A DNA stretch of 42,536 nt from Rhodovastum atsumiense (lineage in GTDB: Bacteria > Pseudomonadota > Alphaproteobacteria > Acetobacterales > Acetobacteraceae). This document shows, in pieces, positions 1,167-32,412 of the stretch. The stretch spans positions 1 through 42,536 of the forward strand of contig JAMFSE010000019.1 in NCBI GenBank assembly GCA_026225115.1, written 5' to 3'. The notes under the pieces were generated by a model that saw nothing but the letters and a program-made list of their open reading frames with translations, did no database searches and was not told the DNA's origin. The position numbers and the translations under genes were made by a program. Each line of letters opens with the position of its first letter. The stretch's first letter is position 1.

Positions 1167-2717
1167 TCACTCCCACTCAATCGTACCCGGCGGCTTGCTG
1201 GTAATATCGTAAGTCACCCGATTAATGCCGCGGACTTCGTTGACGATGCGGTTGGAGACGCGCGACAAAAAGCTCATGTCAAAGGGGTAGACATCGGCGG
1301 TCATGCCGTCGGTGCTGGTGACGGCGCGGAGCGCGCAGACCTGGTCATAGGTGCGGCCGTCGCCCATCACGCCGACGGATTTTACCGGCAGCAGAACGGC
1401 GAAGGCCTGCCAGATGGCGTCGTAAAGCCCGGCGTTGCGGATTTCTTCCAAGTAGATTGCATCCGCCTTCTGCAGAATCTCGACCGCCTCGCGCGTGACC
1501 GGGCCGAGGATGCGGATAGCGAGCCCGGGGCCTGGGAACGGATGGCGGCCGACGATGGCCTCCGGCAGGCCGAGTTCACGGCCAAGCTCGCGCACCTCGT
1601 CCTTAAAAAGTTCGCGCAGCGGCTCGACCAGTTTCATTTTCATATGGGCCGGCAGGCCGCCGACATTATGATGTGATTTGATGGTGACACTCGGGCCGCC
1701 CAACGCGCTGACGGATTCGATGACATCCGGATACAGCGTGCCCTGCGCCAGGAATTCGGCGCCGCCGATTTTCGCGGCTTCCTCGTCAAACACATCAATG
1801 AACAACCCGCCGATGATTTTGCGTTTCCGTTCGGGGTCCGAAATGCCGTCGAGTTTCGAGAGAAACAGATCCGAAGCGTCGCGATGGATCAGCTTGATGT
1901 TGAAACGGTTGCGGAAGACATCGACCACCTGCTCGGCCTCGCCGGCGCGCAGCACGCCGTGATCGACGAAAATGCAGGTCAGCTGATCGCCGATCGCCTC
2001 ATGGATCAGCGCCGCGGCAACTGAGCTATCCACACCGCCGGAGAGGCCGCAGACGACGCGCCCCTTCCCCACCTGGGCGCGGATTTTGGCCTTTTGCTCC
2101 TCGCGGAAACCGGCCATCGTCCAGTCGCCGCTGCAGCCGCAGACCTTGTGGGTGAAGTTACGCAGTAACTGGGCACCATGCGGGGTGTGCGCCACTTCCG
2201 GGTGGAACATCAGGCCGTAGAAATGCCTGGTATCGTCGGCGATCACCGCAAAAGGTGCGCCTTCGGAAACGGCGATGGTGCGAAAGCCGGGTGGCGGGGC
2301 GGAAATATGGTCGCCATGGCTCATCCAGACCTGCTCGCGGGCACCGACCGCCCAGGTACCTTCCAGCAAGGCGCTATCTTCGGTGATATCGACATAGGCA
2401 CGGCCGAATTCGCGGATGTCGGCGCCGCGCACATCGCCGCCAAGCTGGGCGCAAAGCACCATCTGGCCGTAGCAGATCCCAAGGATCGGGAGGCCGGCGG
2501 TGAATATCTGCTCGGGCGCCCGCGGCGAGCCTTCGTCCCCAACGCTGGCAGGGCCACCGGAAAGAATAATCCCCTTGGGCGCAAAGGCAGCAATTTTGGC
2601 AGGATCAACGTTAAACGGCCAGATCTCGCAATAAACACCGGATTCTCGCACCCGCCGGGCGATCAGCTGGGTCACCTGACTGCCGAAATCCAGAATCAGA
2701 ATTTTTTCACTATGCAT
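1167..2717 (-). CDS. guaA: GMP synthase (glutamine-hydrolysing)
   Basis: Converts XMP to GMP using ATP and glutamine, the last step of guanine nucleotide synthesis. The 516 residues are full length. An N-terminal class I amidotransferase domain has the nucleophile in GICYGQ (Cys82) and partners His172 and Glu174 (FHPEVAH). The ATP-pyrophosphatase loop follows (SGGVDSS, residues 226-232), then the C-terminal dimerisation domain ending in PPGTIEWE. It is the last of the minus-strand series guaB, rsmB, GNAT, guaA. A degenerate palindromic repeat (2843-2942) lies between the GNAT stop and the guaA start, so guaA may be transcribed partly from its own promoter within 2718-2842. Confidence 0.98.
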
Positions 2718-2842
2718 CCGTGGCTTGCAGCATAGGGAGCCGTCTAGAACAAGCGGTAAAAGCGAGCAGCCGCTTTTTGAAAATATAATGCGCGGCCCGA
2801 TTCAGACCTCGCGGCTTGCCGCTCAGTCATCGGGACGCGAGG

Positions 2843-2942
2843 CGCAAAAACTTTTGTTATTCTGGAGCCGGGAGTTTCGAAGGCCAGTGGCGAACGATAA
2901 AAGTTTTTTTTGCTTCTTTTTCTTCAGAAAAAGAAGTGCTTA
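2843..2942. repeat. Palindromic intergenic element, copy A (right arm intact, left degenerate)
   Basis: The right arm holds a T8 tract (2904-2911) and then a perfect 10-bp hairpin at 2913-2936 with loop TTCA, ending in GCTTA at 2938-2942, next to the GNAT stop codon. The closing base pair of the stem is C-G here but G-C in the copy at 11938-11961, a compensated change. The left part (from 2843) only loosely resembles a left arm: it has an A-tract plus CTTTTG and ATTCTGG, and no terminal hairpin. It fills the gap between the GNAT gene and guaA; 2718-2842 shows nothing else recognisable. Confidence 0.6.
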
Positions 2943-2943
2943 G

Positions 2944-3483
2944 CTAAACAGTCTCGTTGATGAGCCGATCGATCGGGTCCCAAGCGTACGCCGTCTGCGC
3001 CAGATCCGAGCCGCCCACGCGCGTGATACTGGTCGCAACACGTTTGCCACCCAGGCGTTCGTAGAAGAAGGTGGAGGGGTTATCGCGCAGTACCCAGGCA
3101 AAGGCCGATTTGCAGCCCATGGCCGCCAAATGCTGGCCGGAGGCACGCAGCAATTGGCGGCCGAGGCCGTATTCCTTCCAATCGTCCAGCACGTATAATG
3201 TTTCAACCTCGCCTTCTGCCACTGCAGCGCCGCGAATGCGCCGAGCGGTTGAGAAGCCGATGACGCGCGAGCCGGCCGACGATTCGGGATCCGCATACAC
3301 CGCCACATGAACACCAAGACCGATGCGGATCGAACGGTCGTAATAGGAGGTCTGGCGGGCGACCGAGAGATTGGCGAGGTAGTCGTCCGGCAAAACACCC
3401 GCATAGGCGCTCCGCCAGGTCGACACATGCACAGCGCCGATGCCGGCTGCGTCGGCAGGCCGGGCGCGGCGCACCGAAATCAA
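2944..3483 (-). CDS. GNAT family N-acetyltransferase
   Basis: A 179-residue GCN5-related acetyltransferase. The acetyl-CoA-binding segment is VLDDWKEYGLGRQLLRAS near residues 98-115, a variant of the usual R/Q-x-x-G-x-G/A loop. The FFYERLGGKRV segment is typical of the end of the fold. The start is TTG at 3483-3481 (protein begins MISVRRARPADA), overlapping the upstream methyltransferase stop as TTGA, so translation is probably coupled. The acceptor substrate cannot be inferred. Its position between rsmB and guaA suggests co-transcription with translation and purine genes, not a shared function. Confidence 0.85.
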   Translation of the reverse strand: MISVRRARPADAAGIGAVHVSTWRSAYAGVLPDDYLANLSVARQTSYYDRSIRIGLGVHVAVYADPESSAGSRVIGFSTARRIRGAAVAEGEVETLYVLDDWKEYGLGRQLLRASGQHLAAMGCKSAFAWVLRDNPSTFFYERLGGKRVATSITRVGGSDLAQTAYAWDPIDRLINETV

Positions 3484-4760
3484 GGGATTTTTTCCAGGAT
3501 GGCGCCGTAGAACCCGTCGGTACCGTGGGTGCGCGGAGTCAAGCGTAGCGCGTGCCCGTGCAAGGCGGCGGGCAGCGGGTCGCTCAGCTCAATGCGTCTG
3601 AAGTTCCGGTAGCGAGCCAAAAATGCCTCCATTTGTGCCTCATTCTCCTCATCCAACAACGAACATGTGGCATAAATAAGCCGTCCGCCGGGCTTCACCA
3701 GACGCTGCGCCTGATCGAGAATCATCGCCTGTTTCGGCATGATCTCGCGCAAATCGTTTTCCTTCAAGCGCAATCTTGCATCCGGGTTGCGGCGCCAGGT
3801 GCCGGTGCCGGTACAGGGCGCATCCACCAGCACGCGATCGAATTTTTTCTCCTGCCGCTTGGTCCATTTATCGCCGGCTTCCAGCAGATGCCGCTCCGCG
3901 TTGTGCACCCCGGCGCGGCGCAATCTTTTGATGGCGCCTTCAAGGCGGGGGGCGGAAACGTCGCAGGCGACGATGTGGCCCTTGTTTTCCATCGTCATTG
4001 CAATGGCCAAGGTTTTGCCCCCTGCCCCCGCGCAGTAATCGGCAACACGCATACCAGGTTTGGCATCGACCAGAAGGGCGATCAGCTGGCTGCCCTCATC
4101 CTGAATTTCGATTGCGCCGGACAGGAAGATTTTGCTTCCCGTCACGGATTGCCGAGAGGCCAGGCGCAGCCCCCAGGGGCTGAACTGGGTCGGCCGTGAT
4201 TCCAGGTTCTCGGCACGCAATCCAACCATCGCGTCTTCGCGGGTGGATTTCAGGGCATTAACCCGCAGGTCGAGCGGCGCCGTTTCCGCAAGCGCCGCCA
4301 TTTCCGCAGGCAGTGCGTCGCCAAACTGCGCGGCCAGGCGCGGCATGATCCAATCCGGCACCTCATATTTGACGGCATCCGGCATGTTCGGATGTTCCAG
4401 CGTGTGGCCGGCAAATTTTTCGAGGATGATGGTCTCGGCATCGGTGAGTGCCGGCGGTCCGTAGCGGCCGGAGGTGAAGGCCATGGCAATTTTATGCGGA
4501 GTCATGCCGGAGAAAATGGCCTGAGCCGCGAGCAGCAGCCGCGGCGTGGGTTCGGCGCCGAATTTTTCTAGCCACCAGCCAAGGTGACGGCGCGCGCGTA
4601 GGACTCCCCATACAAGGGTGCTGACTTCGCGCCGATCGCCCGCGCCGATAAAGCGACGGTTGCGGAAGAATGAGTTGGCAACCGCATCCCCCGGCCGCGC
4701 GTCGGCTTCGATTTCAGCAAGAAGATCAATCGCTGCCGCAAGCTGCCCAGCCGGCGTCAT
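3480..4760 (-). CDS. rsmB: RsmB/NOP-family RNA (cytosine-5) methyltransferase
   Basis: A SAM-dependent methyltransferase for a cytosine in RNA; 16S rRNA C967 is the classical RsmB target. From the ATG at 4760 it has about 426 residues: an N-terminal NusB-like helical region, then a Rossmann methyltransferase domain. Visible motifs are ADYCAGAGGKTLAIA (SAM binding), DRVLVDAPCTGTGTWRRNPD (motif IV with the DAPC cysteine) and ATCSLLDEENE (motif VI, catalytic TC-type cysteine). In-frame TTG (4796) and ATG (4784) codons lie upstream, but they fall inside a palindromic repeat, so MTPAGQLAAA at 4760 is preferred. guaB lies upstream and the GNAT gene overlaps the stop. Subfamily specificity is less certain than the fold. 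Confidence 0.9.
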   Translation of the reverse strand: MTPAGQLAAAIDLLAEIEADARPGDAVANSFFRNRRFIGAGDRREVSTLVWGVLRARRHLGWWLEKFGAEPTPRLLLAAQAIFSGMTPHKIAMAFTSGRYGPPALTDAETIILEKFAGHTLEHPNMPDAVKYEVPDWIMPRLAAQFGDALPAEMAALAETAPLDLRVNALKSTREDAMVGLRAENLESRPTQFSPWGLRLASRQSVTGSKIFLSGAIEIQDEGSQLIALLVDAKPGMRVADYCAGAGGKTLAIAMTMENKGHIVACDVSAPRLEGAIKRLRRAGVHNAERHLLEAGDKWTKRQEKKFDRVLVDAPCTGTGTWRRNPDARLRLKENDLREIMPKQAMILDQAQRLVKPGGRLIYATCSLLDEENEAQMEAFLARYRNFRRIELSDPLPAALHGHALRLTPRTHGTDGFYGAILEKIP

Positions 4761-4776
4761 AGCCCGGTTGCCGCCA

Positions 4777-4839
4777 GCGCCCATGCCCCAGAACAAAAAA
4801 GTTTTTTTGCTTCTTTTTGTTCACCAAAAGAAGTGCTTA
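4777..4839. repeat. Palindromic intergenic element, copy B (right half only)
   Basis: Contains half of the GC-rich centre (GCGCCCATGCCCC, from 4777), an A6-G-T7 run (4795-4808), and a hairpin at 4810-4833 whose loop is TTCA (one mismatch in the 10-bp stem), ending in GCTTA at 4835-4839. It lies between the guaB stop and the rsmB start. The left half is absent; its place is taken by the beginning of rsmB, so the first in-frame upstream codons of rsmB are repeat-derived. Confidence 0.65.
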
Positions 4840-4857
4840 GCCGGTTCTTTTTCATGC

Positions 4858-8059
<3,202 letters not shown>

Positions 8060-8063
<4 letters not shown>

Positions 8064-8620
8064 TGCCGCCATGCCAGCGCAATGGACAGCGGCAATACCA
8101 GCAGCATGGTCAATGGCAGAGAGAAATGCGCCAGGATCACCAGGCCAAAGGCCAAACCCGCAACAACCATCTGGCGGCGGCCGCGGAAAATCGGCGCTGC
8201 AATCTTCATTGCCGTGCCCATGACCAGGCCGCAAGCCGCCGCGGCCAGGCCGCCCAGCCCGTGTTGGACGACGTGGATGGCACCGAAGCGGTGATAAAGG
8301 CTGGAAATACAGAGTACGATGACGAGCGGCGCGGTCAGCAGCCCGGCAATTGCCGCCGCCGCCCCGGCCAGCCCACGGTTGCGGGCGCCGAAGGCAAAAG
8401 CGAAATTGACGATATTGGCGCCGGGAAGAAATTGGCAAAGGCTGAACAGGTCGTTGAAACCCTCGGCGGTCATCCATTGCCGCTGATCGACGATAATCCG
8501 GCGGGCGACCGGCAAAACGCCGCCGAAACCAAGGATGCCGGCCTGGAAAAACCCGGAAAAAAGCGTGGTTATGGTGAGTTGTTTAGCGATTAGGCCAGGT
8601 TTGTGCGGGCTTTCGTCCAT
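8060..8620 (-). CDS. chrA: Chromate transporter ChrA family, first half
   Basis: A 186-residue inner-membrane protein carrying the first CHR domain: FFQAGILGFGGVLPVARR (conserved FGG) and FSLCQFLPGANIVNFAF (conserved PG-N), then hydrophobic helices. It overlaps chrA2 by four bases (ATGA), so the two halves are translationally coupled. The gene is divergent from pstS, with 237 bp between the starts. That spacer contains the Pho box, which sits closer to pstS. The family includes chromate exporters and proteins of unknown anion specificity. Confidence 0.87.
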
Positions 8621-8722
8621 CGCCCGTTTTTATGAGCGGTTCCGGCGGATGCGGCCAGCGCCCCCAAAACAGGCTTGCCATGCCGTGCCGCCCACCGCTC
8701 GGGGATCACAGGCGGAATTCAA

Positions 8723-8740
8723 ATGTCATTAAACTGCAAT
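8723..8740 (+). promoter_or_regulatory. Candidate Pho box upstream of pstS
   Basis: ATGTCAT-TAAA-CTGCAAT: two 7-base repeats 11 bases apart with an A/T-rich tetranucleotide between, close to the PhoB-binding consensus (CTGTCAT repeats with 4-base spacers). A further half-site, CTGTCGC, lies at 8748-8754, but 14 rather than 11 bases after the second repeat. The site is 118 bases upstream of the pstS start, and pst genes are classical PhoB targets. Called by eye, without a scoring matrix. Confidence 0.5.
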
Positions 8741-8857
8741 CGAAACCCTGTCGCCTTTGAAACATTGTTGAATTAGAGCGGCGTGGATGTGAGGCATTGC
8801 GCGCGCTGGCGCCATTGGTGCTCACCCAACAGGGATTTACGCGAAAAGGATTTAATC

Positions 8858-9934
8858 GTGCACCTTAACAATAAGCTCCGCCGCTCCACGCTGCTGCGCG
8901 CAGGCGTTGCAGCGCTCGCCCTCTCCGGCCTGACCAGCTTTGCCGCCCCCGCCAAGGCGCAAACCATCGTGTCGCTGGTCGAAAGCGGTTCCAGCCTGCT
9001 CTACCCGCTGTTCAACATCTGGGTTGAGGATTTTGCCACCAACAACCCCGGCATCCAGATCACCACGACCTCGACCGGCTCGGGCGCCGGCATCGCGCAG
9101 GCCATTAAGGGCCTGGTCCAGATCGGCGCTTCGGACGCCTATGTCTCCGACGCTATGACCAAGATGCACCCGACGATTTTGAGCATTCCGCTGGCGATTT
9201 CCGCGCAGTCGATCAATTACAACCTGCCGGGCGTCACCGGGCTGAAGCTTTCGGGCCCAATCCTGGCTGGCATCTACAGCGGCACCATCACCCATTGGAA
9301 TGACCCGCAGATCGCCGCCGCCAACCCGGGCGTCGCTTTGCCGGCCAATGCCATCGTGCCGGTCCACCGCCTGGACGGCTCCGGCGACACCTTTATCTTC
9401 AGCCAGTTCCTCTCGGCCTCGACCCCGTCCTGGAAGAGCAGCACCGGCTTCGGCACCACCTTGTCGTGGCCGCCGATCACCGGTGAAATCGGCGCCAAGG
9501 GCAATGCCGGCATGCTCGCCGCCGCCAAGGCCAACCCGTATTCGGTGGCGTATATCGGCGTCAGCTATGCCTCCAAGGTCAAGGCCGCCGGTCTTGGCAC
9601 CGCTGCTCTGCAGAACGCCGCCGGTGCCTATGTACTGCCGACGCCCGACACTATTGGCGCCGCCGCGGATAGCGTTTCCGCCACCACGCCGCCGGATGAG
9701 CGCGTCAGCATGATCTTCACCAGCGGCCCGACCGCCTACCCGATCGTCAACTACGAATATGCGGTGGTCGACAGCAACCAGCCGGCTTCGGCCTATGCCG
9801 ACGCCATCCGTACCTTCCTGACCTGGGCGATCAACGAAGGTAACAGCCCGACCTATCTGAACCAGGTCAACTTCCTGCCGCTGCCGCCGGCCGTAAAAGC
9901 GCTTTCGGCCGCGCAGATCGCTAAAATACAATAG
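8858..9934 (+). CDS. pstS: Phosphate ABC transporter, periplasmic phosphate-binding protein
   Basis: Binds inorganic phosphate in the periplasm and delivers it to PstCA. It is 358 residues. The signal peptide (LRRSTLLRAGVAALALSGL...AKAQ, cleavage near residue 34) precedes the mature start TIVSLVESGSSLLYPLF. Ligand-loop signatures include TGSGAGIAQAIKG, VPVHRLDGSGDTFIFSQFL and KGNAGMLAA. The start is GTG at 8858, chosen because AAAAGGA (8844-8850) is 7 bases upstream and the signal peptide then begins correctly. A candidate Pho box lies upstream and a strong hairpin terminator follows, which would let pstS be expressed above pstC and pstA. Confidence 0.95.
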   Translation: MHLNNKLRRSTLLRAGVAALALSGLTSFAAPAKAQTIVSLVESGSSLLYPLFNIWVEDFATNNPGIQITTTSTGSGAGIAQAIKGLVQIGASDAYVSDAMTKMHPTILSIPLAISAQSINYNLPGVTGLKLSGPILAGIYSGTITHWNDPQIAAANPGVALPANAIVPVHRLDGSGDTFIFSQFLSASTPSWKSSTGFGTTLSWPPITGEIGAKGNAGMLAAAKANPYSVAYIGVSYASKVKAAGLGTAALQNAAGAYVLPTPDTIGAAADSVSATTPPDERVSMIFTSGPTAYPIVNYEYAVVDSNQPASAYADAIRTFLTWAINEGNSPTYLNQVNFLPLPPAVKALSAAQIAKIQ

Positions 9935-9941
9935 CCCTGAA

Positions 9942-9974
9942 ACACCCTCCCGGTTACGGCCGGGAGGGTGTTTT
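9942..9974 (+). terminator. Intercistronic terminator between pstS and pstC
   Basis: A perfect 12-bp G+C-rich stem (9942-9953 with 9960-9971), a 6-base loop and a TTTT run. It sits 8 bases after the pstS stop and 17 bases before pstC. Partial read-through would give the usual excess of binding protein over permease. Confidence 0.85.
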
Positions 9975-9991
9975 CGTACCGGACCTGAAAT

Positions 9992-10963
9992 ATGCAAATT
10001 AAGCCCTTCCGCCTGACCCTGCTGGCGCTGAGCCTGTTGATCCCCGCCGCGCTTTGCGCGGTTATTTTATTTCTCCTGATCTTCTCGGCGCAGGCCATCG
10101 GCTTTAACGGATTTGGGTTCGTTACCCGCATCATCTGGGATCTGGGCGACCTTTACGGCGACCCGGTGACCGTTCGCGGCGTGCTGGTGCCCGCCGGCGC
10201 CAATTACGGCATCCTAGTATTTATTGTTGGCACATTGCTGAGCTCCGCCATCGCCATTCTCATCGCCGTCCCGCTCAGCGTCGGCGCCGCAATCTTCCTG
10301 TCCGAAGCGGTGCCATCGAAAATCCGCCCGGTCCTGTCGATGCTGGTGGAACTGGTGGCGGTGGTGCCGAGCGTGGTCTTCGGACTCTGGGGCATCGCGG
10401 TGCTGGTGCCCTTCATCGGCACGATGCTGGGCCCGGTGATGTCGAAATATCTCGGCTTTATCCCCTTCTTCGCCGGCGGCGACAGCGGCGGCGGCTACGG
10501 CTTGTTGGCAGCCTCGGTGGTGCTGGCGCTGATGATTACGCCGATCATCGCCACCACCTTGCTGGACGCGCTGCTGCAGGTGCCGAAAGAAAACCGCGAA
10601 TCCGCCTTTGCTCTGGGGGCGACGCATTTCGAGGTGGTTTCCAAAGCCATGATGCCGATGGTGCGCACCACGCTGATCGGCGGCATCGTGCTGGCGCTCG
10701 GCCGTGCGCTTGGGGAGACCATGGCGGTGCTGATGGTCTCCGGCGGCGGGTTGAACATCCTGCCGCACTCGATCTTCAGCCCGATCTCGACCATTGCCTC
10801 CTTCATCGTCAGCCCGCTCGACAGCGCCGAGGGCGATCCCACCAACATGGCGGTGCGCTCATTGGCGGAAATCGCGCTGGTGCTGTTCATCATCACCTTG
10901 CTGACCAACGCGGCCGCAAAACTTCTAACCTCCGGGGGCTTACATGTCGGCAAGCGCAAGTAA
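9992..10963 (+). CDS. pstC: Phosphate ABC transporter permease PstC
   Basis: A 323-residue inner-membrane permease with about six hydrophobic segments. The first is near residues 8-33 (LTLLALSLLIPAALCAVILF). The permease coupling motif lies near residues 200-240 (ESAFALGATHFEVVSKAMMP, then GIVLALGRALGETMAVLM). It forms the phosphate channel with PstA, powered by PstB. It follows the pstS terminator and overlaps pstA by 20 bases, so the two permeases are probably made in a coupled manner. Confidence 0.95.
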   Translation: MQIKPFRLTLLALSLLIPAALCAVILFLLIFSAQAIGFNGFGFVTRIIWDLGDLYGDPVTVRGVLVPAGANYGILVFIVGTLLSSAIAILIAVPLSVGAAIFLSEAVPSKIRPVLSMLVELVAVVPSVVFGLWGIAVLVPFIGTMLGPVMSKYLGFIPFFAGGDSGGGYGLLAASVVLALMITPIIATTLLDALLQVPKENRESAFALGATHFEVVSKAMMPMVRTTLIGGIVLALGRALGETMAVLMVSGGGLNILPHSIFSPISTIASFIVSPLDSAEGDPTNMAVRSLAEIALVLFIITLLTNAAAKLLTSGGLHVGKRK

Positions 10964-11840
10964 CGCAGTCGCGCGGCCGGTCAAGCCGGGCCGCACCACG
11001 CAGGAGCTTAGGCGCGTCATCTCCAGCAAGATCGGCTGGATCGCCTGCGGCGTGGCGTTGGTGCTGGTTATCGGCCCACTGCTCGATATCGTCTGGGTGG
11101 TCGCCTATAACGGCGCCGCGGCGTTCTCGCCAAAACTTTTCACCACCTCCACGCCGCCTGCCGGCGTCGGGCTTCTGAACGCCATCGAAGGCACCGCCGT
11201 CATCTCCATCATGGCGATGGCGATTGCCGTGCCGATCGGCGTCGGGGCCGGGATTTATTTGTCCGAATACGGCAACAACAAGCTCGGCAACAGCATCCGC
11301 TTCCTCTCGGACGTGCTGACCGGCACGCCTTCGATCGTGCTGGGCTATTTCTCCTATATCGTGCTGGTCGGCGGCCTGGGCTGGGGCCTGGCAGCCCCTG
11401 CCGGTGCCGTCACCATCGCCATCCTCATCGTGCCCTACCTCGCACGCATCACAGAACTGGCGCTCCGCCAAGTACCGGTGGCAATGCGCGAGGCCGGCTT
11501 TGCCTTGGGCGCCACCGAACCAACGGTGGTGTTCAAAATCATCCTGCCGGGCGCTGCCTCGGGCGTCATGACCGGCGCCTTGCTGGCCCTGGCCATCTCG
11601 GTCGGCGAAACCGCGCCACTGATCTACACCGCCGGCTTCTCCAGCTACCCGCTGGATCTGGCGCATCCGGTCCATAGCATCCTGCACAGCCAGATCGGCT
11701 ACCTGACCTATGTGATCTGGAGCTTTATCGAACAACCCGACGCCGCCTCCCACGCGCTGGCCTTCGCGGCGGCCTTCCTGGTGATGCTGTTCGTATTGGC
11801 CATTAATATCGGGGTAAGACTGGCAGTTAAGCGGAAGTAA
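10944..11840 (+). CDS. pstA: Phosphate ABC transporter permease PstA
   Basis: A 298-residue permease partner of PstC. The hydrophobic segment IGWIACGVALVLVIGPLLDI begins near residue 31, and the coupling loop reads REAGFALGATEPTVVFKIILP followed by GALLALAISVGETAPLIYTA. The start ATG lies inside the end of pstC (20-base overlap). Its TAA stop (11838-11840) is part of the terminal GTAAGC of a palindromic repeat. Unusually, no pstB ATPase, phoU or phoB follows; the next gene on the strand is hslV, so the ATPase must be encoded elsewhere. Confidence 0.95.
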   Translation: MSASASNAVARPVKPGRTTQELRRVISSKIGWIACGVALVLVIGPLLDIVWVVAYNGAAAFSPKLFTTSTPPAGVGLLNAIEGTAVISIMAMAIAVPIGVGAGIYLSEYGNNKLGNSIRFLSDVLTGTPSIVLGYFSYIVLVGGLGWGLAAPAGAVTIAILIVPYLARITELALRQVPVAMREAGFALGATEPTVVFKIILPGAASGVMTGALLALAISVGETAPLIYTAGFSSYPLDLAHPVHSILHSQIGYLTYVIWSFIEQPDAASHALAFAAAFLVMLFVLAINIGVRLAVKRK

Positions 11841-11968
11841 GCGGTTCTTTTTTGAAAAAAGAACCAAAAAACTTCTTTGAATCTGTAACATGGGCGTGGG
11901 CTCCCCAGCGCCCAGGCCAGCAGAAAAAGTTTTTTTGCTTCTTTTTGTTCACAAAAAGAAGTGCTTAC
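11837..11968. repeat. Palindromic intergenic element, copy C (complete, 132 bp)
   Basis: Bounded by GTAAGC (11837-11842) and GCTTAC (11963-11968). The left arm has a hairpin GGTTCTTTTT/AAAAAGAACC (11843-11865), then an A6 tract. The centre is a G+C-rich imperfect palindrome (11891-11914). The right arm has a T7 tract (11930-11936) and a perfect 10-bp hairpin with loop TTCA (11938-11961). The whole element is one long inverted repeat: reversed, the right arm reproduces the left. A-tract, GC stem and T-tract in that order fit a two-way intrinsic terminator. No coding capacity or target duplication is visible. The pstA stop codon is inside the left end. The rest of the gap to hslV (11969-12052) shows nothing recognisable. 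Confidence 0.75.
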
Positions 11969-12052
11969 TTACCTAAACCTAACGTCCCTACCCTTTCGCC
12001 TACCAGCCTTGCGGCACTTGCGAGGCGCTGACGGTGGTGCCATTTCCGCTGC

Positions 12053-12622
12053 ATGACGAATTTGACAAACTCCCCTGACTCTCACGACCCGGTCGGCTGG
12101 CATGGCACGACCATTTTATGCGTACGCCGCGACGGCAAAGTGACGATGGCCGGCGACGGCCAGGTCTCGCTCGGCAATACCGTGGTGAAGGGCAATGCCC
12201 GTAAGGTACGGCGAATCGGCAATGGCGCGGTGATCGTCGGCTTTGCTGGCGCCACCGCGGATGCGTTCACCTTGCTTGAACGTCTTGAGACCAAGCTGGA
12301 GCGGTTCCCAAACCAGCTGGAGCGCGCCTGCGTGGAACTGGCCAAGGATTGGCGGACCGAACGTTATCTGCGCCGGCTGGAGGCGATGCTGATCGTCGCC
12401 GATGTTGAACGCAGTTTTACGCTCACCGGCAATGGGGACGTGCTGGAACCGTCGGACGGAATCGTTGCCATCGGTTCGGGCGGCAATTTCGCGCTCTCGG
12501 CAGCGCGCGCTTTGATGACGGTGCCGGATTTGAGCGCTGAGGAAATCGCCCGCCGCGCAATGAAGATCGCCGCCGATATTTGTATCTACACCAATGAAAA
12601 TCTGATTGTTGAATCCCTGTGA
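12053..12622 (+). CDS. hslV: ATP-dependent protease HslVU, peptidase subunit HslV
   Basis: The proteolytic ring of the bacterial proteasome-like HslVU complex. In 189 residues, an 18-residue propeptide precedes the catalytic threonine (Thr19 in [10 protein letters not shown]), which is exposed by self-processing. [21 protein letters not shown] follows, as in the family. The long propeptide is common in alphaproteobacterial HslV. It ends overlapping hslU as GTGA, and hslU, dsbB and coq7 follow without gaps. I could not identify a clear heat-shock (RpoH) promoter in the 84 bases between the palindromic repeat and the start. Confidence 0.97.
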
Positions 12623-28336: not shown

Positions 28337-30158
28337 GGGAATGAACCCGATGCTGAAGACGGCTTTATGCGGCTGCGGCAGCGGTCTGCGCGAGACGCGC
28401 TGCTGCGATTCCAACGCCGCCGCATGGCCGGAAACGGGCAGCGCCGAGATCCTTGATCCGATGGCGGCTGAAGCCAGCAAGCTGTTTTCCGAGCAAAAAA
28501 CCCGCGAGGCCGAAACGCTGCTGCTCAAGCTGCTGGACCTCGCCCCCAATCACCGGCTGGCGCTGCGGCTGCTGCTGGAATTGCGGAAAGCCGCAAATAT
28601 AAACCCCGCCACGGAAGTGCTCGGCCGCAGGTTGGCCGCACTTCCCGGCACCGCAGTGCAGGCGACCGCCGCCAATCTGGCGCTGGCGCAATGGCTGATC
28701 GGCCAGAACCGTCATGCCGAAGCCGAGCCCGCTGCGCGAGAAGCGTTAAAGAATAGCCCTCGCGATCCAACTGCCCACCATGTAATGGGCGCGGTTTTCT
28801 CCGAAGCCGGACAGTTGCGCCAGGGCGAGCACCATTACCGCAGGGCGCTGGCGCTGCAGGCGCGCGAGGACGGCACGTTGCTCGGCAATCTAGCCTGGAA
28901 TTTGAAGCTGCAGGGCAAGTTGGAAGAATCTGCCGCGAATTACCAACGCGCCTTGGCGATTCGGCCGGATAATCGCCGCGCCATCGGCGGCTTTGCCCAG
29001 CTGGAGGCCGCACGCGGCAATTATGATCATGCCGGGAAACTGCTGGATGCGGCCCTGGAGGAAACGCCGGCGGATCGCAGCTTGCGGCTATTGAGGGTTT
29101 TGCTGGATTTGATTCTGAAACGGCCGGAAGCGGTACTCGAGCGGCTGGATGACACCGTAGAGCTGCTGCCGCCGGAGCTGATCGCACGCGGCCAGGCCTG
29201 CCTCGCTCTGGACCGGACTGCGGACGCTATTGCCGCGTTCGCGATGGCAAAGCAGCTGCAGCGGGAGCGTTTCGGCCGGCAATATGCACCCAACACCTTT
29301 ATTGCGAGAGCCGCGCAATACCGGGCATTTTTCACTGCCAACCGGCTTGCGGCGTTGCCGAAGTTGCCTGCCATGGAACCACCGCAGCCGGTCTTCCTTC
29401 TCGGCTTCCCCGGCTGCGGTACCTCCCTGCTGGAACAGCTGATGGCGAAAATCCCCGGCTTCATCGCCGGCGATGAGTTGATGCCCATCGCCGAATTGCT
29501 CTCCCTCCCGGCGTTTGAAAACTATCCAGACTGCCTTTTGGACTTTTTGATCGGCGACGGTCTGGATCGGCTTGCGGCGCTGCGTACCCAGGTCCTGGAG
29601 ACGCTCGGCACAGCCTGCGACGCTTCGAAAGAACATCAATTTATAACATTGCGCGCCGCAGGCGATGTCTGGCATCTCGGTCTGATCAAAATGCTGTTTC
29701 CGGAGGCGCCGATTATCCATCTGCTGCGGCATCCGTTGGACGTCGCCGTCACCAATTTTTCCCGCGAGAAACAGCTCGAAGCCGATTGCGCCGTTTCTCT
29801 CAAAGCCCTGGCCCAGCATTTTGATCTGACAATGTCGATGATCCGGCATTACCGCGGCCAGCTCACGCTGCGCTATCTGCCGATCCGCTATGAGGCGCTG
29901 GTCGAAGACCCGGCAGCGGCGCTGCGGGAAATATTGGAATTCATCGGCTTCGATGCAGCCATACCCGCTGCGACGGAGCTTCGCGCCAACGGCGCCGCCG
30001 CCGCCGGCCGGGTTCCAAATCATGCCGTCGTCCAGCAACCCATCCACGACCGCGGCATCGGCCGCTTCCGAATTTTTGAAGCCGCCGCACCAAATTTGTT
30101 CAGCGAGATCCGCCCGATCCTGGCGCCCTGGATCGAGGCGCTGGGCTATGCCTCATGA
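28335..30158 (+). CDS. TPR-containing sulfotransferase with N-terminal SEC-C-like motif
   Basis: A 607-residue three-part protein. Residues 12-24 (CGCGSGLRETRCC) match the spacing of the SEC-C zinc motif (CxCGSGxxxxxCC). Residues about 35-330 are tetratricopeptide repeats, e.g. LAWNLKLQGKLEESAANYQR. Residues about 350-607 are a sulfotransferase domain with the PAPS-binding loop FLLGFPGCGTSLLEQ (354-368; most relatives have RSGT, here GCGT) and the 3'-phosphate motif RHPLDVAVTNF (465-475). There is no signal peptide, so it acts in the cytoplasm. Start may be 28335, 28341 or 28350. It overlaps the TPR-glycosyltransferase gene as ATGA. A role in surface glycan or protein modification is inferred. 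Confidence 0.85.
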   Translation: MGMNPMLKTALCGCGSGLRETRCCDSNAAAWPETGSAEILDPMAAEASKLFSEQKTREAETLLLKLLDLAPNHRLALRLLLELRKAANINPATEVLGRRLAALPGTAVQATAANLALAQWLIGQNRHAEAEPAAREALKNSPRDPTAHHVMGAVFSEAGQLRQGEHHYRRALALQAREDGTLLGNLAWNLKLQGKLEESAANYQRALAIRPDNRRAIGGFAQLEAARGNYDHAGKLLDAALEETPADRSLRLLRVLLDLILKRPEAVLERLDDTVELLPPELIARGQACLALDRTADAIAAFAMAKQLQRERFGRQYAPNTFIARAAQYRAFFTANRLAALPKLPAMEPPQPVFLLGFPGCGTSLLEQLMAKIPGFIAGDELMPIAELLSLPAFENYPDCLLDFLIGDGLDRLAALRTQVLETLGTACDASKEHQFITLRAAGDVWHLGLIKMLFPEAPIIHLLRHPLDVAVTNFSREKQLEADCAVSLKALAQHFDLTMSMIRHYRGQLTLRYLPIRYEALVEDPAAALREILEFIGFDAAIPAATELRANGAAAAGRVPNHAVVQQPIHDRGIGRFRIFEAAAPNLFSEIRPILAPWIEALGYAS

Positions 30159-31552
30159 GCGAAAGCAGCGAAAACCTGGCCCCGCTGAAGCCCGGGCAGC
30201 GCCGCGTGACCTTAAGTGACGCGCTGGCCGAGATCACTGCTTTCGAGCAGGAAAACCGGCTGGACGAAGCCGATGACCTCGCCAGCCGCGTTCTCATCGC
30301 AGCGCCCGAGCAGCCGCATGTGCTGCACATGGCCGGCATTATCGCCTACCGCAAAGGCCGCTTCGGCGAGGCCATTGACCGGATGGAAAAATCCATGCGG
30401 CTGGCGCCCGAAGTGGCACTCTACCCGCGCAATATGTGCGAAATCTACCGCGGCGCCGGCCGGCTGGACGAGGCGCTGCAATCCGGCCGCCACGCCGTCG
30501 AGCTCTCACCAGGCGACAGCCGCGCGCATTTCAACCTTGCCTTGATCCATTACGAAAGACTCGAACTCGATGCGGCGATGGCGGTCGCCGAACAAGCTCT
30601 CGCGCTCGACCCGGAATTCGCGGAAGCGCATTTCGAAAAAGCCGAGGCCCTGCTGCTCGGCGGACGGCTCCGCGAAGGGTGGGAAAGCTATGAATGGCGC
30701 TTCAAACTGAAGCAGGCCGAGGGCATGCTGCCGAAAACCGGCAAGCCGCAATGGAACGGAGAGGACCTTGCCCCAGGCCGGCTGCTGATCGTCGCCGACC
30801 AAGGCTTTGGTGACTGCATCCAGTTCGCCCGGCTGATCCCCTGGGCAACCGCCCACGCCCCGGCCGCCACCCTTGCCTGCAGCCATGATCTGGTGCCGAT
30901 CCTGCGGCAAATCCCTGGTATTTCAACCATCATCAACAGCTGGGATGATGCCAAAGATTATGATTGCTACATCCCGCTATCCGGCCTGCCGCGCCTGGCC
31001 AGCATCACTACCGAGAACATCCCGGATAGCGGCGGATATTTGCAGGCCGATCCAGAACAAATCGAAAGCTGGGGCAAAAAACTGAACCGCCTCGCCGCAC
31101 CCAACAAGCGCCGCATCGCGCTGGTCTGGGCCGGCCGCCCCAGCCATAAAAACGACCGCAAACGCACCCTGAAGCTCAGCCAGTTCTCGCCGCTTTTCAC
31201 TATCCCCGGCATCACCCTGATCACGGTGCAAAAGGGCGACCAGATCGCTCAGGCCGGCGGCTATTTCGGCGCCGCCCCGCTGCTCAACCTCGGCCCCGAA
31301 ATCGACGATTTTACCGACACCATGGCGATCCTGAAGAACGTCGAACATCTGGTCACCATCGACACCTCCGTCGCCCATATCGCCGGCGCCATCGGCGTGC
31401 CAACCAGCCTGGTCCTGCCCTACGCCCCCGACTGGCGCTGGCTGCTAAACCGTAACGACACACCCTGGTACCAGTCCATAAGACTCTACCGCCAGAAAAA
31501 ACCCTATGACTGGTCGGGCGTTATTGAAAACGTCGCTAAGGACTTAGGGTAA
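30155..31552 (+). CDS. TPR-glycosyltransferase (GT9/heptosyltransferase-like)
   Basis: A 465-residue protein. The N-terminal ~195 residues are TPRs (GKGRF/GRL-type repeats such as GAGRLDEALQSGRHAVELSP and FNLALIHYERLELDAAMAVA). The remainder resembles the glycosyltransferase family 9 fold: LLIVADQGFGDCIQFARLIP near residue 209, RIALVWAGRPSHKNDRKRTL in the middle, and the donor-binding end VTIDTSVAHIAGAIGVPTSL. Such TPR-GT proteins occur beside flagellin and envelope glycosylation genes; the substrate here is unknown. Coupled to the preceding sulfotransferase by an ATGA overlap. Its TAA stop (31550-31552) lies in the left end of a palindromic repeat. Confidence 0.85.
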   Translation: MSESSENLAPLKPGQRRVTLSDALAEITAFEQENRLDEADDLASRVLIAAPEQPHVLHMAGIIAYRKGRFGEAIDRMEKSMRLAPEVALYPRNMCEIYRGAGRLDEALQSGRHAVELSPGDSRAHFNLALIHYERLELDAAMAVAEQALALDPEFAEAHFEKAEALLLGGRLREGWESYEWRFKLKQAEGMLPKTGKPQWNGEDLAPGRLLIVADQGFGDCIQFARLIPWATAHAPAATLACSHDLVPILRQIPGISTIINSWDDAKDYDCYIPLSGLPRLASITTENIPDSGGYLQADPEQIESWGKKLNRLAAPNKRRIALVWAGRPSHKNDRKRTLKLSQFSPLFTIPGITLITVQKGDQIAQAGGYFGAAPLLNLGPEIDDFTDTMAILKNVEHLVTIDTSVAHIAGAIGVPTSLVLPYAPDWRWLLNRNDTPWYQSIRLYRQKKPYDWSGVIENVAKDLG

Positions 31553-31697
31553 GAAAAAGCAGTTTTTTTTAAAAAAAAGAACCAAAAAATTTTTCTGAAT
31601 CTGAGGCATGGGCGTCGATGCCGATACAGCCCATGCCCCAGAGCAGCAGAAGTTTTTTGCGCCGCTTTTTTTCAAAAAAGCGGCTGCTTTCCTTAAG
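31549..31697. repeat. Palindromic intergenic element, copy D (complete, between convergent genes)
   Basis: Fills the whole space between two convergent genes. The left arm begins GTAAG at 31549, with AGCAG, a T8A8 run and AGAACC plus an A6 tract. The centre is the perfect 9-bp stem GGCATGGGC (31605-31613) with GCCCATGCC (31629-31637). The right arm has a T6 tract (31653-31658) and the hairpin GCCGCTTTTT-TTCA-AAAAAGCGGC (31661-31684), then CTTAAG. Both flanking TAA stops (31550-31552 and, on the minus strand, 31695-31693) lie inside the ends. Compared with copy C the hairpin stem bases differ but pairing and loop are kept. The arrangement suits a two-way terminator. Confidence 0.75.
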
Positions 31698-32412
31698 CGA
31701 AAATTTCTTCGAGAAAATCCACTAGTGAGTTCCAGGAACGGCGGTCGGCTTCAGCGCTGTAGCGTATGGCTTGCGGCATGCCGGCGCTATCCGCGGTTTT
31801 GTTGGTGAAGCTGTGCACCGTGTTGCCATAGAGATGCATTTGCCAATCGACTTTGGCGGCGGTCATCTCATCGGTGAATGTCTGCCTCAGCTCCGGGCCG
31901 ATCATCGGGTCATCGGCGCCTATACACACAAGCACTTTGCCTTTGATGTTTTTGGCATCTTCCGGGCGGGTGGTGCCGAGGCCGCTATGGAAACCGGCGG
32001 CGCCTTTAATGTCGCAGCCGCTGCGCGCCAGTTCCAGGGAGACCGTGCCGCCGAAGCAATAGCCGATTGCGGCGATTTTCGAGCTGTCGACTTCCGGGCG
32101 CGCCAGCAAAGCTTTCAGCCCGGCTTCCGCGTAGAGGCGGGTTTGCAGCGGGTCCTGCATCATGGGGCCGACAAAACCCATCACCTCATCCATGGAGGAG
32201 ACGGTTTTGCCCTCGCCGAACAGATCATTGGCAAGGGTGACGTAACCAAGTTCCGCCAGCCGTTGCGCCTTTTCCTTGGTGTGGTCACTGAGGCCAAAGG
32301 CTTCCGGAAAGACCAGTATCCCGGGCCGCTTTCCGGATTTTGCCGGGTCGAAAAACAGATGGCTCTCCATATGCCGGTGAATGGCGTCATATTTTAGAAT
32401 CTCTGAATGCAT
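31693..32412 (-). CDS. Dienelactone hydrolase family protein
   Basis: A 239-residue alpha/beta-hydrolase from the ATG at 32412 (MHSEILKYDAIHRHM), which has GGGAGA 6 bases upstream; the longer frame to 32508 is rejected. The triad is Cys119 (IGYCFGGT), Asp168 (GADDPM) and His200 (GNTVHSF), with Glu36 (FPEAFG), matching dienelactone hydrolases that use a cysteine nucleophile. No aromatic-degradation genes are nearby, so the natural substrate is unknown. The stop is inside the right end of palindromic copy D. Confidence 0.92.
   Translation of the reverse strand: MHSEILKYDAIHRHMESHLFFDPAKSGKRPGILVFPEAFGLSDHTKEKAQRLAELGYVTLANDLFGEGKTVSSMDEVMGFVGPMMQDPLQTRLYAEAGLKALLARPEVDSSKIAAIGYCFGGTVSLELARSGCDIKGAAGFHSGLGTTRPEDAKNIKGKVLVCIGADDPMIGPELRQTFTDEMTAAKVDWQMHLYGNTVHSFTNKTADSAGMPQAIRYSAEADRRSWNSLVDFLEEIFA

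Follow-up and report, generated by a model that had tools for sequence, protein, structure and literature searches.

What a palindrome with hairpin-bearing arms does at the end of a gene is the question raised by this locus of Rhodovastum atsumiense. We analysed a stretch of 42,536 nucleotides from contig JAMFSE010000019.1, and this whole stretch is called the window. The initial annotation had claimed four intergenic copies of a palindromic element whose structure is under selection, and had read it as a two-way terminator or mRNA 3'-end element that spreads as a non-autonomous repeat.

For copy C, the claimed 132-bp extent and the GTAAGC...GCTTAC termini are borne out by the sequence, together with two A+T-rich hairpins, an A6 and a T7 tract and an inner G+C-rich palindrome (Table 1). 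The RNA fold of this copy reaches -52.4 kcal/mol, against -29.1±3.5 for shuffles (z -6.7). All four copies were located, but only C and D are complete. Copy A lacks a clear left arm and is, like B, mostly a right arm, to which B adds half of the inner palindrome. Copy D lies between genes at 30155-31552 (+) and 31693-32412 (-), and its left hairpin is degenerate. The TTCA loop is kept in the right-arm hairpins of A, B, C and D (4 of 4), and the reported paired stem changes are there as well, since the G-C pair of C is C-G in A and the lower stem of D is GCCGC/GCGGC. The four copies stand between predicted genes, although copy C begins with four bases that still belong to the 3' end of the upstream gene, whose TAA stop falls within GTAAGC.

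Table 1. Coordinates of the copies and of the parts of copy C in the window
Feature	Position	Strand	Remarks
Copy A, right arm	2904..2936	+	T8 tract, C-G type hairpin; no C in tract
Copy B, right arm	4802..4833	+	T7 tract, hairpin with one mismatch; left arm absent
Copy C, complete paired element	11837..11968	.	between pstA and hslV
Copy C, left-arm hairpin	11843..11865	-	GGTTC/GAACC lower stem, T5/A5 upper stem, TCA loop
Copy C, left tract A6 (T6 on - strand)	11866..11871	-	predicted third strand of left hairpin
Copy C, central G+C-rich palindrome	11872..11929	.	common to the aligned copies of the same genome
Copy C, right T7 tract	11930..11936	+	
Copy C, right-arm hairpin	11938..11961	+	CTTCTTTTTG-TTCA-CAAAAAGAAG, G-C type
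Copy D, both arms	31557..31690	.	between convergent genes
Copy D, right arm	31653..31684	+	T6 tract, GCCGC lower stem, T5 upper stem

The genes flanking copy C, which we take from their sequences to be pstA (10944-11840, +) and hslV (12053-12622, +), are both matched in 11 genomes of the same genus and were not found together there (on separate draft contigs in 10, about 75 kb apart in one). Their adjacency at copy C therefore looks recent, and copy C may sit at a rearrangement junction between them.

The repeat unit and its spread

A BLAST search with copy C in its own genome gave 323 first-look candidates, of which 40 were scored and all 40 match. Chance is excluded because every scored place matches and the backward-read control is zero among the results listed. 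The genome holds 219 exact arms, against 0 for the backward-read control pattern, so the further copies that the initial annotation proposed to look for are present genome-wide.

Across Acetobacteraceae, exact arms are present in 113 of 397 genomes, which represent 35 of 102 genera. Their number per genome runs from 1 to 1061, highest in G207, with sharp differences within genera. Among 289 genomes sampled across the class (three others from the same family), our genome is the sole match. It has 219 arms, against 0-1 in 13 other genomes counted in the same genus; G004, G013, G015, G020 and G024 of this genus also have many matches. The sequences suggest a strong expansion or loss of arms inside one genus. 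A scan of named contigs returned at least 115 stretches, and the carriers among the 80 listed include Acidiphilium rubrum, Acidocella, Asaia, Gluconacetobacter, Roseomonas, Rhodovarius and Neokomagataea. Two copies on Pseudoroseomonas cervicalis plasmids cover 94% and 89% of the query, one of which fills the gap between two convergent genes. A 43-nt consensus arm has no match in Escherichia coli. The scans across genomes support a dispersed repeat in Acetobacteraceae that has no gene of its own.

Brought to one orientation, 29 copies (L018 excluded) align well, and AAGC...GCTT are the only termini common to most of them. What recurs throughout the family is a single arm, some 45-50 nt long. 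By eye, it reads (GG)ATAAAAG, T-tract, usually G, hairpin, and then a pyrimidine-rich flank such as CTTnCTT, in which the hairpin has a free lower stem, a T4-6/A4-6 upper stem and a closing TNCA loop. The reported palindrome is an inverted pair of arms around a variable core, which is a different sequence in other genera. By a simple test on 258 arms, 171 are paired and 87 stand alone, and lone arms that adjoin unrelated sequence were seen. Variant arms occur in L056 and L099, with a GAAGC lower stem, a longer linker (TTTTTGGTGAAGCTTTT) and a T4 stem with a T5 tract.

A longer repeat was seen in G024. It is about 204 bp long with TATACCA...TGGTAT ends, variable flanks and the palindrome inside, and eight copies, one cut by a contig end and mostly 92-98% identical, were found (L031 4876-5079, two in L032, and L034, L035, L037, L038 and L039). 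From its sequence, it looks like a separate, recently active, TA-targeting MITE holding the palindrome. A transposon with the arms as its ends was also considered and set aside, since this 204-bp repeat leaves the other copies unexplained.

Covariation of the tract with its hairpin

The T-tract of each arm mirrors the T-strand of the hairpin in length and sequence, so that a loop-proximal C-G pair goes with a C in the tract and a T-A or G-C pair with a T. For scoring, we predicted the tract by reversing the T-strand together with the first T of the loop and by setting T against any G-C pair. We collected hairpins that have a TNCA loop on a T-rich stem of 8 pairs or more, whether or not a tract was present, from stretches around copy-C matches or at contig starts. 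This first set gave 310 hairpins in 54 sources, and in 296 of them a run of 5 or more pyrimidines lies no further than 12 nt 5' of the hairpin. Seven of the 310 were dropped as palindromic TGCA loops on the wrong strand, leaving 303 arms. The mirror rule is exact in 274 of these 303, while shuffling tracts within genomes gives 148±7, with a maximum of 177 in 10000.

By class, the rule holds in the first set for T4 with T5 (9 of 9), T5 with T6 (122 of 133), T6 with T7 (13 of 13), T5G with T7 (59 of 66), T5C with TCT5 (49 of 57), T4C with TCT4 (7 of 8), T3GTT with T7 (3 of 4) and T3CT with TTCTTT (9 of 9, from 4 genomes). The rare classes T6C, T6G and T4CC follow it with 1 of 1 each, and TTTCC fails (0 of 1) in a single, chance-like hairpin of G082. 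The informative classes are TTTCT with TTCTTT, TTTTC with TCTTTT and the rare TTTTCC, TTTTTTC and TTTTTTG. The tract is unchanged under the lower stems GCCGC, CTGC, GTTAC and GTCC.

A second set came from the named contigs, after 9 of the 80 loci, whose titles name neither Acetobacteraceae nor Proteobacteria, had been set apart. Here 127 of 142 arms are exact (shuffles 45.5±4.6), or 125 of 140 without the two arms shared with the first set. The pattern used for fetching requires four T at the end of the tract and a T5 stem, and 20 of the 29 arms that it would not itself match are exact. We also counted the two commonest types with 7-nt tracts over 78 whole genomes (73 of the 113 carriers plus 5 genus members; the 40 omitted carriers have 1-8 arms each), and 5157 of 5186 arms are concordant (2965 C/C and 2192 T/G), with 21 and 8 discordant. 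Both types occur together in 21 genomes, where 1528 and 1331 arms are concordant against 12 and 7 discordant; in our genome the numbers are 88 and 47 against 0 and 1.

Exceptions to the exact rule amount to 29 of 303 and 15 of 142 arms and include copy A. In the window, the right arms of C and D obey the rule, D despite its unrelated lower stem, and A breaks it. The arm of copy B was left unscored for its hairpin mismatch, and the left hairpin of copy C lies outside the scored set, since its loop on the - strand has 3 nt and scoring requires 4 nt. Lone arms follow the rule in 75 of 87 cases. Selection on structure, as claimed earlier, is therefore supported by the covariation, although the earlier claim concerned the hairpins and missed the A/T tract that covaries with them.

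Common descent is one alternative; the copies are related in this way, so the arm counts are not independent events. The element would then be an ordinary two-way intrinsic terminator, and the coupling would reflect the descent of two or three subfamilies. The A and T tracts do flank the central stem, a few hairpin types dominate, and several relatives have a terminator at the place of copy C after pstA. Ten same-genus relatives were read past pstA, and in the nine that remain after one proved too short we saw, by eye, a T-tract terminator in 4, a hairpin without T-tract in 3 and neither in 2. Against this, eleven hairpin classes follow one mirror rule, length included, discordant intermediates are just 29 of 5186, and lone arms without the central stem obey the rule. 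The base between tract and pair is moreover nearly independent of both. The normalised mutual information is 0.89 between pair and tract and 0.79 between the two lengths, but 0.08-0.09 between the lower-stem base and either pair or tract and 0.18-0.20 between that base and the two lengths, small values that still exceed their shuffles (z 7-15). Because the lower-stem base is almost independent of tract and pair, ancestry alone is unlikely, and on the sequence comparison we regard this explanation as already disfavoured and improbable.

Arms taken as orthologous by their flanks are almost always identical where both flanks match (matches on one side only, mostly caused by the second arm, were ignored). 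At one site G155 and G317 carry the G-C and the C-G type and the tract has also changed; the hairpin of G317 is mismatched, however, and another copy may have replaced the original one.

Could the tract instead pair by Watson-Crick rules, either across to the opposite arm's tract or, shifted by the lower stem, with the purine strand of the hairpin beside it? The A6 and T7 tracts are largely complementary and are paired in the MFE fold, so that the left tract of copy C may also pair with the right one. Pairing between arms fails because the left and right tracts mismatch at the variable base (e.g. in L002 and L014). Shifted pairing fails because a GAAG or GAAC lower stem would require C regardless of the pair next to the loop, while the tracts of the T-A and G-C types have T; nor does it explain why T5 and T5G arms differ in length, or why T4CC goes with TCCT4. 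We consider Watson-Crick pairing of the tract very improbable.

The mirror relation itself places the tract parallel to the purine strand, the geometry of a pyrimidine-motif triplex (T.A-T, C+.G-C). In this motif T is the best tolerated natural base opposite a C-G inversion. The coupling of tract and hairpin thus very probably reflects a triple helix. When the pyrimidine-rich strand is single-stranded, as nascent RNA or unpaired DNA, the T-tract would fold back upon the upper stem, occupy its major groove in parallel orientation to the purine strand, and form about 5-8 triples, mainly T.A-T, with one C+.G-C (C-G type) or T.C-G (G-C type) triple near the loop. That this happens in the cell is what we infer from the sequence.

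Arms were also seen under labels from outside the family. Those with the order AAAG, tract, G and hairpin occur in a few contigs labelled as gut Bacteroidota or Clostridia (L217, L160, L205 (Rikenella / Rikenellaceae), L163, L169, L189, L221). In the nine loci set apart, 9 of 10 scored arms obey the mirror rule, the miss being L152, with none scored in L221, and the arm of L217 does so with an unrelated lower stem. These arms may reflect horizontal spread, misbinning or a wider structural motif. An Rfam search of five gut-bacterium loci found two tRNAs only, away from the arms. In a 98-kb Bacteroides plasmid (L263, about 2503-2535), a hairpin of similar plan, with a T5 tract, a T4 stem and, by eye, a TTGA loop, follows a hypothetical gene, and similar hits were found in 22 Bacteroides and Parabacteroides plasmids.

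Gene ends, spread and the possible place of action

To place the arms relative to genes, we used a home-made gene caller; 17 elements at locus edges were dropped and 12 inside predicted genes were counted apart. The gene-end position implied by the initial annotation is supported, with copies at a median of 12-13 bp after stop codons. Measured on the hairpin side, the median distance of paired arms is 13 bp to a stop codon that faces them, with 71 of 98 at 30 bp or less, and 65 bp to a start codon that does so; the medians for lone arms are 27 bp and 69 bp. The 84 paired elements divide into 22 in convergent, 47 in tandem and 12 in divergent contexts, with 3 within genes. Of the 189 elements, paired and lone, 19 fall in divergent gaps, although these gaps account for 24% of the intergenic length. 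Where tandem pairs have room (n=31), 23 sit in the stop-side quarter, or 12 of 21 when 30 nt are reserved for the start.

Two sites in the genus g50 differ between species. At the first, G155 and G371 carry the element and 7 species lack it; at the second, G155, G371 and G317 carry it and 6 species lack it. The matched flanks of the empty sites are 54-66 and 74-91 bp apart. The empty gaps show no obvious terminator by eye. A clear target duplication, which a MITE would have beside its terminal inverted repeats, was not seen at the two sites, whose flanks are too diverged for a firm reading; the arms themselves are inverted. The transposase domain Y1_Tnp (PF01797, RAYT) is absent from our genome, and single hits, at E 1e-8 to 6e-6 and over Pfam's cut-off, came from 4 of the 26 copy-bearing genomes searched. 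The sequence data establish that tract and hairpin covary in a three-way fashion, how many copies there are, that these lie at gene ends and that their presence varies between species.

As for where the triple helix would act, our best overall explanation is that it works mainly in RNA, as a two-way block at the 3' end, a reading towards which we lean somewhat and which we hold with lower confidence than the triple helix itself. A transcript from either flanking gene would meet a hairpin and then the central stem, and the last arm reached would have the U-tract/hairpin form capable of a U.A-U triple helix. The element would spread as a non-autonomous repeat and survive where promoters stay unbroken.

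Several counts bear on this placement. Against RNA, 12 of 81 paired intergenic elements lie between divergent genes, and lone arms in tandem context number 19 in the orientation that puts a U-tract into the mRNA versus 29 in the opposite one. Mismatched hairpins (n=35) have T.G in 15 versus C.A in 8, too few to show an RNA strand. A simple terminator scan found none at copy C, whose G+C-rich stem ends about 8 nt before T7, where an intrinsic terminator would have its T-run immediately after the stem, and one hit at copy D, on the arm hairpin, where 0.9 were expected in shuffles.

The competing account is that the triple helix matters in single-stranded DNA, the arms being recognised in folded form by a repeat-copying enzyme, and that gene ends are merely where insertions harm least. 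HUH transposases, which recognise REP hairpins, provide the model. Copy numbers from 0 to 1061 in one family, strongly uneven inside genera, sites filled or empty between species, arms in both orientations and also in Pseudoroseomonas plasmids, and the existence of copies between divergent genes all speak for it. It is weakened by the lack of Y1_Tnp in our genome, with single hits in 4 of 26 carriers searched, and no target duplication was seen at the polymorphic sites; DNA pyrimidine triplexes with C+.G-C, besides, are favoured by low pH. As a full explanation we rate it possible but less probable. Asked simply about the role of the arms, we place RNA slightly short of an even chance, which is favoured because of the gene-end position and an RNA-compatible motif, and DNA somewhat lower, as a tentative role in spread favoured because lone arms have no orientation bias and because of the presence/absence pattern.

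Relation to known elements and meaning

In the RNA triple helices of the PAN/MALAT1 ENE, which lie at 3' ends, and in the telomerase pseudoknot, as predicted for the arms, a U-tract lies in the major groove of a U-A stem, with C+.G-C among the U.A-U triples. Compared with these, the arms are bacterial, form a genome-wide repeat and have the tract directly 5' of their own hairpin. Bidirectional intrinsic terminators consist of A-tract, stem and T-tract at gene ends; the arms add triplex-coupled hairpins on both sides, and lone arms come without the terminator part.

The closest comparison is with potential intrastrand triplexes (PITs), as described by Holder et al. 2015 (PMC4666352). There, the program ITxF searched for stems of 6-15 nt and loops of 1-6 nt and predicted 988,588 PITs in 5246 genomes and plasmids. 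That paper defines them by a pyrimidine-purine stem whose third strand lies on the same strand. With our arms judged by the mirror rule rather than by ITxF, 274 of 303 and 125 of 140 have the predicted third strand, mostly of 6-8 nt; 9 of 303 arms have only 5 triads, and some variants have a linker above 6 nt. The arms are also more frequent in our genome than the backward-read control pattern (219 against 0). Like BoxC / TM_ECO of Escherichia coli, the arms carry hairpin and third strand on one strand, are dispersed, occur also as inverted pairs and differ widely in copy number between relatives (PMC4666352). Their pyrimidine strand has the order Hoogsteen-pyrimidine-purine, class IV of PMC4666352, and the other strand the order of class II. 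Whereas TM_ECO is G/C-rich, the arms are A/T-rich, with 5-8 triples and a separate lower stem, are found mainly in Acetobacteraceae, and reach 1061 per genome against 143 for the highest TM_ECO count (PMC4666352). According to the same source, TM_ECO forms a stable triplex in vitro, in vivo footprinting gave no support, its authors tie it to genomic instability, and earlier work cited there found neither promoter nor terminator activity. It also states that pyrimidine-type intrastrand triplexes are possible in RNA and purine-type ones impossible. The arms are backed by covariation, a word absent from the main text of PMC4666352.

REP/BIME elements, as presented in PMC3733652, resemble the arms in being short palindromes close to genes that occur in many copies, alone or as inverted pairs, and the arms add a covarying third strand to what the GTAG and CGTC superfamilies have. 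By eye, no GTAG or CGTC tag is common to the 29 aligned copies, which have AAGC/GCTT flanks instead, and CGTC repeats are stated to be missing in Acetobacteraceae (PMC3733652). A REP/BIME with RAYT was thus rejected on the absent tag and the transposase absent from our genome. Rfam gave sub-threshold hits only for 2600-12100 of the window. The literature searched, with subscription papers mostly outside it, held no account of such arms in Acetobacteraceae and none of covariation within intrastrand triplexes, and the consulted part of a Gluconobacter RNA-seq paper (PMC5756330) mentions no repeats, hairpins or palindromes.

We therefore file the arms, with their class IV order, as an A/T-rich PIT variant that has evolutionary evidence for its third strand. 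Judged from sequence, the family is best called a new A/T-rich PIT element across many Acetobacteraceae. Hairpin pairs and third-strand bases that change together in thousands of copies are rare evolutionary evidence that bacteria keep a triplex, and the natural matched and mismatched arms are ready-made material for triplex tests. A bolder proposal, which we consider unlikely as a whole, is that Acetobacteraceae end hundreds of transcripts with a selfish repeat forming a bidirectional RNA triple helix, a bacterial counterpart of the viral and human ENE on which selection can be read, base by base, as three-way covariation; if this were true, the C+.G-C triple of some arms could confer sensitivity to the low pH that these bacteria meet. 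For the genomes of Acetobacteraceae, the finding would provide a repeat that can be annotated and a candidate natural 3'-end part.
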